Shown here one piece after another: positions 2,698 to 36,907 of a stretch of 36,907 nt of DNA; position 1 is the first letter of the stretch, and the number at the start of each line of letters is the position of its first letter. A program made the translations under genes and the position numbers. The notes below the pieces were generated by a model. It saw only the letters and a list, made by a program, of their open reading frames with translations. It did no database searches and was not told where the DNA came from. Source of the stretch: a virus. The stretch is from IMG/VR virus record IMGVR_UViG_3300010412_000040, positions 1-36,907 of that record, one strand, 5' to 3'.

Positions 2698-3255
2698 ATG
2701 GCAAGACAAATCATTCAAACCCTACTCGCTGGCGACACCTATAAGCGTGTCTTCAATGCGAGTCCTTATAGTTCGGGTGACGGCTACAGCCTCTATTTGA
2801 AGCTGAACGGTCCATCCGGCTCCCCTCAGAAATCGTCATACACGGCTAACGCTAATACAACTTCAAGCACCCTGTTTGATGTTCGTATTGGACCGGATGC
2901 TAGTGCAAATCTGGCAGCGGGTCTTTACTCCTATGCCGTGGTTGTGGATGACGGCACGGATCAATACACGATTGAATCCGGCACTCTCACGGTAGAAGCT
3001 CGCGCAGACCTGTCTACAGCAAGTGACCTCAGAAGTCACAACCAGAAGGTCTACGAAGCTATCTGTGCCGTGATTGAAGGTAGAGCGTCACAGGATCAGC
3101 AGTCCTATACCGTGGCTGGTAGGACGCTACAACGCACTCCACTTCGTGATCTTCTTGACCTCAAGAAGTATTACCAGCAGTTGGTATTGGAAGAATCGGG
3201 TGACATTAGTGCTGGTCCCAAGAAGCTGTTTGTCCGGTTCAGTAATCCATCGTGA
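2698..3255 (+). CDS. head-tail connector protein with C-terminal gpW-like domain
   Basis: Probable head-completion protein that stops DNA leaking and creates the tail-docking surface. Residues about 115-165 (AICAVIEGRASQ, YTVAGRTLQRTPLRDLLDLKKYY) follow the lambda gpW pattern of two helices around a beta hairpin. The gene sits between terL and portal exactly as W does in lambda. Lambda gpW is only 68 aa. Here an N-terminal 100-aa beta-rich, Ig-like segment precedes it (EGRASQ lies well after residue 100), so this is a domain fusion. The ATG follows ACAAGG and a TAAATA motif. The gpW assignment rests on pattern and synteny. The N-terminal domain's job is unknown; it could decorate the capsid or stabilise the neck. 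Confidence 0.7.
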   Translation: MARQIIQTLLAGDTYKRVFNASPYSSGDGYSLYLKLNGPSGSPQKSSYTANANTTSSTLFDVRIGPDASANLAAGLYSYAVVVDDGTDQYTIESGTLTVEARADLSTASDLRSHNQKVYEAICAVIEGRASQDQQSYTVAGRTLQRTPLRDLLDLKKYYQQLVLEESGDISAGPKKLFVRFSNPS

Positions 3256-6641: not shown

Positions 6642-6950
6642 ATGATTGAAAGTAATGCAGACAGATTAGCATTCTTCAACCCCGAAGAGTTTGGTGTGAC
6701 GGCAACGATCACATCATCCTCTTCGGGGAGTGAGTCTGATGTTGTAGGAATCTTTGATTCAAATTATTTGAATCTGGATTTGGGCAGTAGTTCGGTAACG
6801 ACAAGTGACCTTCAATTCATGTGCCGCACGATGGATGTTTCGGCATTCACTCAAGGTGACACGCTGGTATTAAACGGAACCACTTACGAGATTACCGATG
6901 TTCAGGAAGATGGAACTGGTGTGACCGTTCTTAAACTTCACAAGGTGTAA
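6642..6950 (+). CDS. head-tail joining protein, gpFII-like
   Basis: A 102-aa beta-rich protein in the position of lambda FII, directly after the capsid gene. The C-terminal half, with GDTLVLNGTTYEITDVQEDGTGVTVLKLHKV, matches the small beta-barrel pattern of FII/head-tail joining proteins (interface protein on the connector that receives the tail). The ATG has a weak site (CAGGACTGATC upstream). It ends 3 bp before the next gene. The assignment rests on size, order and the C-terminal pattern. Confidence 0.65.
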   Translation: MIESNADRLAFFNPEEFGVTATITSSSSGSESDVVGIFDSNYLNLDLGSSSVTTSDLQFMCRTMDVSAFTQGDTLVLNGTTYEITDVQEDGTGVTVLKLHKV

Positions 6951-26905: not shown

Positions 26906-27325
26906 ATGTTTGAATTTGAATTTCTAGGTCAATACAAGGATGCTGGCGAAACTTTACTGGTGTTCGCCAGCTTAGGTGGTGTGTTGTGGGTGATTCTGCG
27001 CAATGCCTACAAGCTGATTCGCAATGTAGAGAAGTTAGTAGAGTCATCCGAGAAAAACGAGAAAGCCCACGAATCCATCACCACCGAATTGCGTGGTCAT
27101 ATCAAGATGGAAGAAGACAGGGACGCAATTCGTGATGAACAAATGAAGACCATCGTGACTGAAATGCGTCCGAATGGTGGAAGCTCAATGAAGGATGTTG
27201 TCAACGCCACGGCTCATAAGATTGATGAAGTTCATACTCGCGTGGCTGTCCTAGAACAGTGGAAAGAAGACAGAAAGGAGATTGACGAAGCGAAGAACAG
27301 TAGAAGGCGAAAATCTACTAAATAA
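26906..27325 (+). CDS. small membrane-anchored coiled-coil protein
   Basis: A 139-aa protein starting at ATG 26906 behind AAAAGGGAGA. The frame opens earlier (26852) but without a ribosome site. One membrane helix at about 13-33 (AGETLLVFASLGGVLWVILRNA) follows an acidic N-terminus. A long charged helix then runs through KLIRNVEKLVESSEKNEKAHESITTEL. The end is very basic (KNSRRRKSTK). It could be a holin-like or membrane-anchored accessory protein; the single helix and long cytoplasmic coil are not diagnostic. Its last codons contain the next TAAATA motif. Confidence 0.55.
   Translation: MFEFEFLGQYKDAGETLLVFASLGGVLWVILRNAYKLIRNVEKLVESSEKNEKAHESITTELRGHIKMEEDRDAIRDEQMKTIVTEMRPNGGSSMKDVVNATAHKIDEVHTRVAVLEQWKEDRKEIDEAKNSRRRKSTK
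27318..27324 (+). promoter_or_regulatory. TAAATA-type late-like promoter with structured leader
   Basis: TACTAAATAAGAATG overlaps the stop codon of the membrane protein gene. The predicted start is G27330, the first base of the GCCGGT hairpin stem. Confidence 0.65.
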
Positions 27326-27329
27326 GAAT

Positions 27330-27393
27330 GCCGGTCACGATGCTGCCAACATCTACCGGCTCTAACGACAACAATTATAAGGGAGTCGCCAGC
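27330..27393 (+). promoter_or_regulatory. conserved structured 5' leader of GIY-YIG gene (copy A)
   Basis: Stem GCCGGT/ACCGGC encloses GATG/CATC around a 7-base loop. A second stem CGAC/GTCG encloses the ribosome site AAGGGAG. Almost the same sequence precedes the gene at 34492. The one change in the first hairpin (CTG versus CTA) falls in the loop. It could hide the ribosome site. It is not a riboswitch class I recognise. Confidence 0.6.
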
Positions 27394-31926: not shown

Positions 31927-32637
31927 ATGAACATAGAACTGACACCGAATTATTCCGCTAACTCATTCAATCGCGTAGCACCCTATGTCTATGCGCTTGA
32001 GTGGCAGGACGGTTCTATCTACATCGGTGTCAGGTCAGCCAATAGCAGAAAGCCGAAATCAGACCTCTTCAAGCAATATTTCACTAGCTCAAAGTATGTC
32101 CGTGAAAGGCTGGATGCTAACGATTACCCAACTGAAATAGTGATCTTTGACACCTTTGACTGTCAGGAACATGCACACGAAGTAGAAACCGAATTACTCA
32201 CCGCACTTAGAGAATTCGGCTTATGGGAAAAGACTCTAAATCGTGCAATCAACGGCAAATGTTTCACGCCAGCACTGAATCTCACGGAAGAGGAACGCAA
32301 AGCCTATCGCAGAGCCTATTGGAAGTTCTTTAGGCAGACAGAGAAGCGAAAGGAATACATGCGAGCCTACAACCAGACACCCGAAGTCAAGGAATATCTG
32401 CGGAACTACTTTAAGGAATACGCGCAGACACCCCAACACAAGGAACGCATGAGGGAATTTAGAAGAAAGCCGGAACAGAAGGAACGAATGAGGAATTACA
32501 TGCGAGCCTACAAGCAGACGGACAAATACAAGGCTTACATGAAGGCTCTTAGACAGACTCCCAAGGTCAAGGAATACAACAGGGAGTACATGAGGAAATA
32601 CAACGCACAAAGGAAATTGAAAAAATTAGAAATATAA
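31927..32637 (+). CDS. GIY-YIG homing endonuclease-like protein 2
   Basis: A 236-aa paralogue of the protein at 27394. The first 110 residues are close to identical in pattern (NSFNRVAPYVYALEWQDGS, IYIGVRSAN). The C-terminal 130 residues are tandem units of about 14-15 aa built on R-Y-x-QTPE-x-KEYMR (for example YMRAYNQTPEVKEYLRN, FRRKPEQKERMRN). These are longer and more regular than in copy 1 and probably act as a basic DNA-binding array. It lacks the structured leader of copies at 27394 and 34492 and is reached from the 31216 unit. Confidence 0.75.
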   Translation: MNIELTPNYSANSFNRVAPYVYALEWQDGSIYIGVRSANSRKPKSDLFKQYFTSSKYVRERLDANDYPTEIVIFDTFDCQEHAHEVETELLTALREFGLWEKTLNRAINGKCFTPALNLTEEERKAYRRAYWKFFRQTEKRKEYMRAYNQTPEVKEYLRNYFKEYAQTPQHKERMREFRRKPEQKERMRNYMRAYKQTDKYKAYMKALRQTPKVKEYNREYMRKYNAQRKLKKLEI

Positions 32638-32738
32638 GAAAACTTAGCGTGTATTCCCTACTAGATGTTGTGGTGCATACAATTTGTAAGACCAACATCT
32701 TGTGGTATTGGGCTTAAGAGGGTCAAAAACTATCCGCG

Positions 32739-32750
32739 CATATATACATG
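32739..32750 (+). promoter_or_regulatory. CATATATACATG element, copy 1
   Basis: An identical 12-mer occurs at 33387-33398, each following a GGGTCA...AAAA stretch. It may be a variant late-like or -10 promoter. Downstream lies the hairpin array from 32820. Confidence 0.4.
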
Positions 32751-32819
32751 ACATAGGGAACACAAAAAGGAAGAACCCGATCACGATCAAATTAGAAATA
32801 TAAAAGCATTGCAGGGTGT

Positions 32820-33015
32820 GTCTTAGGCGGAACTCTTACCCGTCCATCCGCGCAATCCTCTCACCAGCCGAAAAGGTGAGTTACTTAAGAAAAGGCTGTC
32901 TCAGTGGGTCTGGACGGTTATTGCCTACGAAATAGGCACGGACACAAATGCGCGAAACCGGCGTCAAATCCAGTCCGGTAAGTCGCTTGAGGCGCGAAAC
33001 GTGGATGGGGAGAGG
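32820..33015 (+). ncRNA. possible structured RNA (hairpin array)
   Basis: Consecutive hairpins: CTCACC/GGTGAG (32860-32880), GCCTA/TAGGC (32923-32937), ACCGG/CCGGT (32957-32979) and CGC/GCG near 32984. GCGCGAAAC is repeated at 32950-32958 and 32992-33000. CCATCC and GGATGG could close the set. It matches no RNA class I recognise (not tmRNA, RNase P or a tRNA). Confidence 0.35.
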
Positions 33016-33042
33016 CGTGGAAATCTAACTTCTTAAGACGCA

Positions 33043-33056
33043 CATGTGATCACATG
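33043..33056. promoter_or_regulatory. 14-bp perfect palindrome CATGTGATCACATG
   Basis: A perfect dyad, like a dimeric regulator operator. The half CATGTGAT recurs at 33257. No repressor gene is visible in the window, so the binder would be a host or helper protein. Confidence 0.45.
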
Positions 33057-33109
33057 AAGTCTCTAGGCAGTGATAGTTTAGTTCTTAAAGTCGCCTATAA
33101 ATCTAAAAG

Positions 33110-33332
33110 AGTCCAGCGAGCGCGTAGCGCGAGCAGCGAGCGAAGCGAGCTAGGAAGTGAAGATTAGTTTTTCTAGCGACCTAAAAATCCCAAGGCGACC
33201 TATAACGCGCAATTAGCTCGCTTCGCTCGCTGCGAGCCTTCGGCTCGCTAGACTCCATGTGATATCTAAAGATTTAAATCAAGAGTCGCTAGAAAGTTTC
33301 AAGGACACTCCTCGCGCTTCGCGCTCGGAGTA
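33110..33332. repeat. palindrome/cruciform block
   Basis: A 20-bp perfect inverted repeat (33133-33152 with 33214-33233, core AGCGAGCGAAGCGAGCT) spans 61 bp. Inside and around it: TCTAGCGAC (33172) with GTCGCTAGA (33285), hairpin GCGAGCC-ttc-GGCTCGC, and ACTCC..GCGC-ttc-GCGC..GGAGT (33307-33332). CGACCTATAA-like repeats accompany it. This resembles REP-like elements or an origin. Confidence 0.6.
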
Positions 33333-33386
33333 GACCCCGAATGATGCATTGGAATTGCGTCTAAAATTTATGGGTCACAAAAAGAT

Positions 33387-33398
33387 CATATATACATG
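33387..33398 (+). promoter_or_regulatory. CATATATACATG element, copy 2
   Basis: Identical to 32739-32750. Counting 6 nt from ATATATA puts the start at 33400, one base from the closing stem of the next RNA (33399). Confidence 0.4.
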
Positions 33399-33519
33399 TG
33401 GAGCCACTAGAATTTCATCAACAGCTTTTGCTTTTTTGTATTCCCAAGAGCCGTTGATACGCACATTAGTCATGCCGCGTCTTTTATCTTCCAATCGCAA
33501 AGGGTTTCTAGTGGCTCCA
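33399..33519 (+). ncRNA. closed-stem RNA 1
   Basis: The ends are perfectly complementary over 14 bp (TGGAGCCACTAGAA with TTCTAGTGGCTCCA). Inner stems are ATCAAC/GTTGAT (33417/33453) and ACGC/GCGT. No T-run terminator follows. A 63-aa open frame crosses it but needs a TTG start and no ribosome site is seen. Confidence 0.5.
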
Positions 33520-33536
33520 TTGAATTCTTGTAGATG

Positions 33537-33543
33537 CTAAATA
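33537..33543 (+). promoter_or_regulatory. TAAATA-type late-like promoter of RNA 2
   Basis: TGCTAAATAGTTTTTG. The predicted start at 33549 is one base before the closing stem of RNA 2, and no protein gene follows. Confidence 0.65.
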
Positions 33544-33549
33544 GTTTTT

Positions 33550-33663
33550 GAATCTTCTGTTGGGTTTCTAGCGTTCAGTTCCTATTCCTATCAGAGTAAA
33601 ACGTCCGATCTTCTTGGGTATCTCCTTTCCCACTTCGGACACCCCAACAGAAGATTCCTTTTT
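33550..33663 (+). ncRNA. closed-stem RNA 2, promoter- and terminator-bounded
   Basis: GAATCTTCTGTTGGG (33550-33564) pairs perfectly with CCCAACAGAAGATTC (33643-33657), followed by CTTTTT. Inner helix GTCCGA/TCGGAC encloses TGGG/CCCA. It sits between two TAAATA motifs, so it looks like an independent small RNA of about 110 nt. It has no open frame of note. It could act as an antisense, protein-titrating or packaging RNA; the function is unknown. Confidence 0.65.
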
Positions 33664-33664
33664 G

Positions 33665-33671
33665 CTAAATA
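33665..33671 (+). promoter_or_regulatory. TAAATA-type late-like promoter of RNA 3 / gpZ-like gene
   Basis: TGCTAAATAAAATTGCC. The predicted start G33677 is the first base of the RNA 3 closing stem. Confidence 0.65.
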
Positions 33672-33676
33672 AAATT

Positions 33677-33801
33677 GCCGGGGTGCCTGTAAGACGCGAC
33701 CACCGAGACAACAACATAGAAAAGTAAGTCTGTTGGGCAAGGCACATAAAAACAAACTATAAGCCGCTAAAACTGCGCATTGTCACCCCGGCGTTCTTTT
33801 T
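33677..33801 (+). ncRNA. closed-stem RNA 3 or leader of gpZ-like gene
   Basis: GCCGGGGTG (33677-33685) pairs with CACCCCGGC (33784-33792), then GTTCTTTTT. Inner pairs are GTGCC/GGCAC and AGAC/GTCT. It could be a free small RNA ending at the T tract, or an attenuator in front of the gpZ-like gene, whose ATG is 18 bp further on. Confidence 0.55.
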
Positions 33802-33818
33802 CCTCAGAGCAACGCGCA

Positions 33819-34415
33819 ATGCTAAAAATCGCAGCCGTCATTGGTCCCGTCATGAAGTCGCTGGAAAAGGCAGAGAAACAGATTGCCTACGGAACGTCTG
33901 TGGCACTGAACAAGGCAGCGTTTTCAGCAAGGACAGCCGCGCAATATCATCTGGAAAAGCGTCTGATCCTTCGCAATAAATTCCTCAAAAATTCTGTCAT
34001 CTATAAGCGAGCATCCAAGACTAAGTTGGAAGCGTGGGTAGGTGTGCTGGAACGGGCATCGTGGGCAGAGCGACTAGAGAAGGGTGGAACACGCAGACCG
34101 AAATCCTCAAAGAACATCGTCATTCCTCAAGGTGTTCGTTCAGACCCCAAGAAGCTAATTCCAAAGCGGCTCCGTCCAAGTCAGCTATTGGCTCGTAAGG
34201 ATGTGTTCTATAGCGACCAGATATCACCGGGGATCAAGGGAATCTGGCAGCGACTTCCTAACAATCGCCTGAAACTCTTATATGACTTAGAACCAACTAC
34301 CAGCTATGACAACAATCAGATTGAATTGAAGAAGACCATGAGCATTGCTGCGCTGAAATCCTTGGAAAGAAACTTGGATAAGTGCGTGGCTGATGCCTTT
34401 AGGTCAGCAAAATAG
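33819..34415 (+). CDS. minor tail protein Z-like (displaced)
   Basis: A 198-aa protein with the start at ATG 33819. A TTG at 33780 is in frame but would lie inside the RNA 3 stem. Residues 12-80 (SLEKAEKQIAYGTSVALNKAAFSARTAAQYHLEKR) have the amphipathic Ala-rich pattern of lambda gpZ/tail completion proteins, followed by a basic middle (RRPKSSKNIVIPQGVR). In lambda Z lies between FII and U. Here that site is empty and this gene is near the right end, under its own TAAATA motif. Its role would be finishing the tail end that meets the head. Family call by pattern and absence of another candidate. Confidence 0.6.
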   Translation: MLKIAAVIGPVMKSLEKAEKQIAYGTSVALNKAAFSARTAAQYHLEKRLILRNKFLKNSVIYKRASKTKLEAWVGVLERASWAERLEKGGTRRPKSSKNIVIPQGVRSDPKKLIPKRLRPSQLLARKDVFYSDQISPGIKGIWQRLPNNRLKLLYDLEPTTSYDNNQIELKKTMSIAALKSLERNLDKCVADAFRSAK

Positions 34416-34422
34416 ATAAATA
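34416..34422 (+). promoter_or_regulatory. TAAATA-type late-like promoter with structured leader
   Basis: AGATAAATAAAAATGCC overlaps the end of the gpZ-like gene's tail. The predicted start is G34428, the first base of the GCCGGT stem, as in copy A (27330). Confidence 0.65.
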
Positions 34423-34427
34423 AAAAT

Positions 34428-34491
34428 GCCGGTCACGATGCTACCAACATCTACCGGCTCTAACGACAACAGTTAAGGAAGGTCGCCAGCA
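34428..34491 (+). promoter_or_regulatory. conserved structured 5' leader of GIY-YIG-like gene (copy B)
   Basis: Shares about 47 of the first 48 bases with copy A at 27330, including GCCGGT/ACCGGC and CGAC/GTCG. The loop between the latter differs (GTTAAGGAAG versus ATTATAAGGGA). An ATG just before it would encode a 16-aa peptide ending in TAA in this copy only. Confidence 0.6.
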
Positions 34492-36173: not shown

Positions 36174-36179
36174 TTGGTG

Positions 36180-36186
36180 CTAAATA
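36180..36186 (+). promoter_or_regulatory. TAAATA-type late-like promoter, leaderless arrangement
   Basis: GTGCTAAATAAAGCAATG. By T4 spacing the start would be A36192, the first base of the ATG itself. Confidence 0.6.
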
Positions 36187-36191
36187 AAGCA

Positions 36192-36839
36192 ATGAGAACA
36201 GCTATTTGCATTTCAGGAAAGATGGAAGAGGTAGAGAAAGACCTACCCTTCACTAAGCTGCACCTAATAGATAAGTATCAGGCTGATGTATTCGTTAGCA
36301 CATGGGACGATGAGACTGACTACTTTGGTGCAGTCAGGTTGGAGTCAGAACAATTAGAAGGATCAGTGCCGCTAACAGAGTTCAAGCAGCATGTGGGAGA
36401 AGGCGAGAGATTCCGTGCATACAACAATCAACTATCAATGGGAACAGAGCGCGAGAACGTGGTGTGTATGCTCTACAAACTATGGCGTTGCAATGAACTA
36501 AGAAGGCAATACGAATTAGAGAATGGATTCACTTATGACTGTGTGATTCGTTTCAGGTGTCGCATCACTCTTTACAAGTTTCCACTCATCCAGCCGAAGC
36601 CCAACACTATCTACATACCAGAGGGCAATGACTACATGGGTGGATGGAATGATCAGATAGCGTTGGGTGATAGCGCAGCAATGAATGAACACTCATCACT
36701 CTATCCTCACCTGTGGGAATACAGAGAGAAGAGATATCCACTACATCCTGAGTCAATCTATCGGAAGCATCTGGAAGAAAGGAAGCTGAACGTTGAGAGA
36801 TTCCCTTCCAAGTATGTGCTGCGACTCAGGAAGCGATAG
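36192..36839 (+). CDS. glycosyltransferase-like protein, possibly leaderless
   Basis: A 215-aa protein starting at ATG 36192. It begins RTAICISGKMEEVEKD and continues KYQADVFVSTWDD, the N-terminal pattern of a family of small phage and bacterial glycan-modifying proteins. Near the end, GGWNDQIALGDSAAMNEHSSLYPHLWEYREK and HPESIYRKHL match their second conserved block. The region that normally contains a DxD-type metal site reads RFRCRITLYKF, without the expected Asp, so activity is uncertain. It may modify virion or host glycans. It is last in the genome, next to cos. Confidence 0.65.
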   Translation: MRTAICISGKMEEVEKDLPFTKLHLIDKYQADVFVSTWDDETDYFGAVRLESEQLEGSVPLTEFKQHVGEGERFRAYNNQLSMGTERENVVCMLYKLWRCNELRRQYELENGFTYDCVIRFRCRITLYKFPLIQPKPNTIYIPEGNDYMGGWNDQIALGDSAAMNEHSSLYPHLWEYREKRYPLHPESIYRKHLEERKLNVERFPSKYVLRLRKR

Positions 36840-36894: not shown

Positions 36895-36907
36895 GGTTTT
36901 TCGCAGG
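36895..36907. other. cos: right copy of 13-bp terminal repeat (probable cos end)
   Basis: GGTTTTTCGCAGG, identical to 1-13. Joining the ends gives a continuous TGGGTTTTTCGCAGGCACCC junction with GGGT/CACCC flanks. Confidence 0.7.

Follow-up and report, generated by a model that had tools for sequence, protein, structure and literature searches.

Candidate noncoding RNAs with helix-sealed ends beside predicted T4-superfamily late promoters in a lambda-like phage genome

Small RNAs of phages are already known, as are late promoters of the CTAAATA type. In the phi29 pRNA, a phage RNA domain of ~120 nt is closed by an end helix. The late promoter of phage Aeh1 was determined in an analysis of T4-like phages as CTAAATA starting at -12 (PMC1524935). 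In phiM12, a T4-superfamily phage of an alphaproteobacterium, we found the same motif before gp23 (as GCTAAATA), gp22, gp19 and gp18. Here we analyzed IMG/VR record IMGVR_UViG_3300010412_000040 along its whole length of 36,907 nucleotides (the window), in which three consecutive segments, referred to as RNAs 1-3, are each bounded by complementary ends. From the letters of this record we tentatively propose, at slightly below even confidence, that this lambda-like siphophage uses T4-superfamily late promoters to make noncoding RNAs late in infection, namely RNAs 2 and 3 and probably RNA 1.

Genome organization and the noncoding gap

The phage genome is lambda-like, with a lambda-type terminase (phrog_15) by PHROG scan of the ORFs. 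Genes of lambda type (terminase, portal, capsid, tail and fibre) take up positions 75-26468, followed by a holin-like ORF, homing endonucleases, an integrase and small ORFs. Among the window ORFs scanned against PHROG, no replication, repressor, sigma or clamp genes were recognized and none belonged to a PHROG for gp55, gp33 or the sliding clamp (gp45); the window also contained no tRNA or tmRNA. The record begins and ends with the same 13 bases (GGTTTTTCGCAGG, 1-13 = 36895-36907), located 61 bases 5' of the TerS start, which suggests a linear genome with filled-in cohesive ends that is likely complete. The lowest value in the fold scan of the genome (z -8.8) was obtained for an imperfect 20-bp hairpin within the head-closure gene (6680-6728).

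RNAs 1-3 occupy the right end of the largest noncoding gap in a genome that is otherwise packed (Table 1). The gene at 33819 is the first in a late block that continues to cos and the terminase, and in CRP-406 the terminase is adjoined by a minor tail protein gene. The minor tail gene downstream and the CRP-406 arrangement indicate that the gap heads a late block running through the genome end into the terminase. The original prediction of a cassette of three units was correct as to the three segments but not as to their number, because the same gap contains further structured segments (A and B). The stretch containing segment B (33043-33398) had a fold z of -6.4. Across 32740-33390, the noncoding DNA gave z -7.3 overall, had no match in Rfam and includes a multibranched segment of 240 nt as well as a 20-bp stem that carries GCTCGCTTCGCTCGC repeats. 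A closed hairpin (AGATGTTG...CAACATCT, 32663-32702; z -5.0 in a 120-nt window) lies directly 3' of the GIY-YIG ORF.

Table 1. Coordinates of the noncoding gap, candidate RNAs, predicted promoters and neighboring features
Feature	Position	Strand	Details
Leader copy before another homing-endonuclease-like ORF	27319..27380	+	Near-identical to the leader at 34417; hairpin at predicted +1 27330; box and hairpin in 27319..27360
Largest noncoding gap	32638..33818	+	1,181 bp, next largest 223 bp; ORF and gap analysis
Upstream structured segment A	32815..33050	+	Closed by GTGTGTCTTA/TTAAGACGCAC; z -2.5
Upstream structured segment B	33133..33300	+	20-bp stem 33133-33152/33214-33233 overlapping 11-bp stem 33170-33180/33285-33295
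CATATATACATG, possible weak promoter of RNA 1	33387..33398	+	Predicted +1 33400
RNA 1 (candidate)	33399..33519	+	121 nt; stem 33399-33412/33506-33519, 14 bp (15 with G-U pair); internal hairpins
TGCTAAATA, predicted T4-superfamily late promoter of RNA 2	33535..33543	+	Predicted +1 33549
RNA 2 (candidate)	33550..33657	+	108 nt; stem 33550-33564/33643-33657, 15 bp; inner GTCCGA/TCGGAC helix
T5 tract	33659..33663	+	One base 3' of RNA 2 stem
TGCTAAATA, predicted T4-superfamily late promoter of RNA 3	33663..33671	+	Predicted +1 33677
RNA 3 (candidate)	33677..33792	+	116 nt; GC-rich stem 33677-33685/33784-33792, 9 bp
T-rich tail GTTCTTTTT (including T5)	33793..33801	+	3' of RNA 3 stem
Minor tail / tail-completion (gpZ-like) protein	33819..34415	+	phrog_1924 9.7e-17; tblastn to minor tail proteins
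TAAATA plus hairpin GCCGGT/ACCGGC, leader of GIY-YIG homing-endonuclease ORF	34417..34478	+	Hairpin at predicted +1 34428; box and hairpin in 34417..34458

Closing stems, late-type boxes and predicted starts

Perfectly complementary ends of 14, 15 and 9 bp had been claimed for the three segments, and all three stems proved perfect. The 36.9-kb window contains four inverted repeats of this kind (perfect, at least 11 bp, loops of 40-200 nt), each of them located within 33133-33657. In 20 shuffles of the genome the total was 0-3, and the longest repeat usually measured 11-13 bp, reaching 14 bp in one case. Against dinucleotide shuffles, RNA 1 folded with z -6.4 (-6.1 in a second run) and RNA 2 with z -5.2, and in both cases no shuffle did as well. 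RNA 3 was no better than its shuffles (z -1.1) and has little internal structure beyond the closing stem. Downstream T tracts and upstream TAAATA motifs (33538 and 33666) are present for RNAs 2 and 3, as originally described, and no T tract follows RNA 1.

The decamer GGGTTTCTAG is indeed present in RNA 1 (33502) and RNA 2 (33562), at a level near chance. It had been taken as a hint of relationship, a suggestion that we do not retain: the local alignment of RNAs 1 and 2 reached p = 0.045 as the best of 20 comparisons, uncorrected, and single-sequence covariance models of RNAs 1-3 each found only itself and none of the others (the RNA 2 model also found the reverse strand of RNA 2, which is unsurprising given its palindromic stem). 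By these comparisons, RNAs 1, 2 and 3 are not homologous. This lack of mutual homology also argues against a MITE reading, in which the segments would be inverted repeats that matter only as DNA, either recombination sites or what is left of small mobile elements, and would have no function as RNA. Homing endonucleases flank the locus on both sides and several inverted repeats fall within 600 bp, as such a DNA origin might leave; no target-site duplications were seen by eye, and two stems are in register with a late-promoter +1, which a DNA element does not require. We regard this origin as very unlikely.

The boxes of RNAs 2 and 3 read GCTAAATA, and the CTAAATA core occurs as TGCTAAATA at 33535, 33663 and three further sites, all on the + strand. 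TAAATA was found 18 times on the + strand of the window versus 4 times on the reverse strand, and 12 of the 18 forward copies lie at least partly in noncoding DNA, which accounts for only 7.6% of the window (1.8 expected under a dinucleotide model). In 17 records with related terminases, GCTAAATA was rare and had no consistent strand bias. The strand bias, the noncoding enrichment and this rarity elsewhere argue that the motif acts as a promoter class of this genome. The virion genes preceded by its boxes include those for head-tail, capsid and tail-fibre proteins, and we infer from the sequence that the class is of the T4 late type. At 36178-36194, a late box (GCTAAATA) stops 6 bases before the ATG at 36192, which places the predicted start on the ATG itself and gives a possible leaderless mRNA.

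An Aeh1-type late promoter goes with gp55, gp33 and a clamp in the same genome, a combination not found here. If the late class is right, these proteins must come from elsewhere or be too divergent to recognize. T4-type late boxes in a lambda-like genome lacking a recognizable late sigma would require a T4-type phage in the same cell; we infer this helper from an absence, and the argument could fail for a partial record or for genes diverged beyond recognition. The genome may thus be a satellite of a T4-type phage. A more specific version, which we consider unlikely, is a cos-type lambda-like satellite that lacks replication genes and relies on the late sigma of a T4-superfamily helper to be switched on, with the same switch making tandem end-sealed RNAs (natural paired-termini RNAs) that would influence gene expression in the helper or the host.

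For RNAs 2 and 3 there is good support for the original statement that each RNA has a promoter of its own, here a T4-superfamily late promoter of the CTAAATA type; the case is only suggestive for RNA 1. There, no clean CTAAATA box precedes the segment. The element CATATATACATG is present immediately upstream, as had been reported, and has a single other exact copy (at 32739); within it, CATATATA is identical to the T4 late TATAAATA at 6 of 8 positions. The start was said to lie one base off the stem, and the predicted +1 (33400) is the second base of the perfect stem, which begins at 33399. The RNA 1 promoter is weak and its assignment remains a guess.

Transcription starts were placed by the published Aeh1 rule, with the C of CTAAATA at -12. 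The starts predicted in this way lie no more than one base from the first base of the closing stem, in agreement with the original prediction: 33549 versus a stem start of 33550 for RNA 2, and 33677 coinciding with the stem start for RNA 3. The register was assessed by determining the longest perfect stem starting within ±1 base at 3,000 random positions. The 15-bp stem of RNA 2 was reached at 0 of 3,000 positions (P < 1/3000; <0.0004), and the RNA 3 stem was reached by 0.2% of positions by length and 0.03% by hydrogen-bond weight. Taken singly, neither the 9-bp stem of RNA 3 nor the decamer stands out, as would be expected if chance inverted repeats lay beside chance TAAATA boxes; stem lengths, clustering, +1 register and the strand and position bias of TAAATA already make such a coincidence unlikely, and overall we rate it as extremely improbable.

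The strongest rival to independent RNAs is that the structures are 5' ends of late mRNAs. The boxes at 33535 and 33663 would then be the promoters of the gpZ-terminase block, whose mRNAs would carry the +1 stems as 5'-terminal stabilizers or attenuators, in the role of cis-acting leaders and insulators of this late operon. The main support comes from the two other late-type promoters before homing-endonuclease ORFs, which also start on a hairpin (27330 and 34428) and have the start TAAATA-N5-GCCGG in common with RNA 3. In addition, the minor tail gene at 33819 starts 27 nt past RNA 3 with no other late box preceding it, and RNA 3 might just as well be a 5' leader belonging to that gene. However, a leader has no need of three units in series or of 15-bp stems that close 108 nt end to end. 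RNA 2 has a T tract of its own and a further promoter behind it, and the majority of late promoters in this genome have no stem at +1. We consider this explanation possible, if somewhat unlikely. Both copies of the homing-endonuclease leader could also encode MPVTMLPTSTGSNDNN, and a search with the leader found no match.

Searches for related RNAs and targets

No Rfam family matched the window at the gathering cut-off, and a permissive scan of 32600-33900 returned only spurious sub-threshold matches, in line with the original remark that no known RNA class fits. DNA similarity searches against phages returned nothing for 1.25 kb (distant mode) or for the virion half of the genome (near mode). 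The best TerL relatives were 45-47% identical and, where named, largely alphaproteobacterial; closer relatives are possibly absent from the collections. None of these TerL relatives carried late boxes or long closed stems in register, and covariance models of RNAs 1-3 gave zero matches on ~95 of their loci. For the combinations of model and target that were run, the models gave nothing convincing in the first 50 kb of Aeh1, in phiM12 or in the T4 region with rnaC and rnaD. Use of GIY-YIG paralogues as bait led to no confirmed relatives.

Three further searches were performed at the level of short sequences. A 26/31-nt match of RNA 2 to phiM12 (E = 0.02) lay on the sense strand of a gene start, with a 12-bit model match at the same spot, and was judged to be chance. 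Exact 14-nt arms matched IMG/VR too frequently to be informative. The promoter-plus-arm pattern of RNA 3 had 15 chance-like matches in IMG/VR, one of them with CCCCGG downstream in a different context.

Targets were considered under the proposal that the segments are natural paired-termini antisense RNAs, in which the sealed stem would display a stretch complementary to the site where translation of a gene from a competing or helper phage begins. Their layout is similar to that of engineered paired-termini antisense RNAs. The minus strand of RNA 1 resembles an overlapping-gene junction (...KIKDAA stop overlapping ATGACTAAT, MTNVRINGSWEYKKAKAVDEI...), and its codon score falls between the 95th and 99th percentile of shuffles, a weak hint. 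Yet the sole tblastn match in phages (E = 2) fell on the opposite strand from the annotated gene, target searches in PHROGs, IMG/VR and phiM12 returned nothing convincing, and no coding-like signal was detected in RNA 2 or RNA 3. We hold an antisense role of this kind to be quite improbable.

Proposed explanation and comparison with described systems

The reading of RNAs 2 and 3 as independent late transcripts can be set out as a sequence of steps. The GCTAAATA late box, as the sequence supports, would set +1 at the start of the closing stem, either on its first base or on the base preceding it. A late RNA polymerase composed of the host core and a gp55-type sigma (the latter probably from a co-resident T4-type phage) would start there. 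As the 3' arm emerges it would zip onto the 5' arm, and the U tract would free the polymerase, so that the closing stem would serve as a long-loop terminator for RNAs 2 and 3. The expected product is an RNA of ~110-120 nt with both ends sealed in a helix, which would confer exonuclease resistance and allow it to accumulate. Action in trans on an mRNA or protein in the late phase is the least certain step and is a guess.

Termination of this type fits the stem and U-tract pattern of intrinsic terminators, with a GC-rich stem and T-rich tail in RNA 3 and a stem with 7 of 15 GC pairs followed by T5 in RNA 2. The loops (78 nt for RNA 2 and 98 nt for RNA 3) are far longer than those of ordinary intrinsic terminators, and a standard terminator scan made no call at either site. 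On sequence grounds, discrete small RNAs are plausible.

If the RNAs are real, they would be undescribed phage noncoding RNAs in which one helix sets both starts and ends, driven by a promoter class unexpected in a lambda-like phage. The promoter finding leads to a testable claim, namely that virion genes and RNAs depend on the late-transcription machinery of another phage, and such dependence would be an unusual form of phage parasitism. None of the families searched contains RNAs with sealed ends that are in register with promoters of this class in a lambda-like genome.

The CTAAATA late promoters of Aeh1 and phiM12 agree with those predicted here in the identical heptamer, the lack of a -35 requirement, the predicted spacing to the start and the placement before virion genes; they differ in that the box class here sits in a lambda-like siphophage without recognized gp55, gp33 or gp45. 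T4 RNAs C and D (species 1 and 2; 139 and 119 nt) are likewise a tandem pair of similar size beside a GIY-YIG endonuclease gene. However, they lie in a tRNA cluster, whereas this window has no tRNA, they lack a long closing stem, and the ends of rnaD are unpaired; models of RNA 1 and RNA 3 did not match T4 rnaC or rnaD. The phi29 pRNA differs from the RNAs proposed here, which have no Rfam match and accompany a lambda-type terminase (phrog_15), not a phi29-type packaging motor. In engineered paired-termini antisense RNAs, as in the RNAs proposed here, long paired ends (perfect over 14 and 15 bp here) hold the interior, and these RNAs are transcribed as a unit, as predicted here, but they are artificial, and no target was found for the RNAs of this locus. 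The 5'-terminal stem-loops of phage and bacterial mRNAs begin at +1, as predicted for the stems of this locus, but they are short local hairpins, whereas the stem here closes more than 100 nt.
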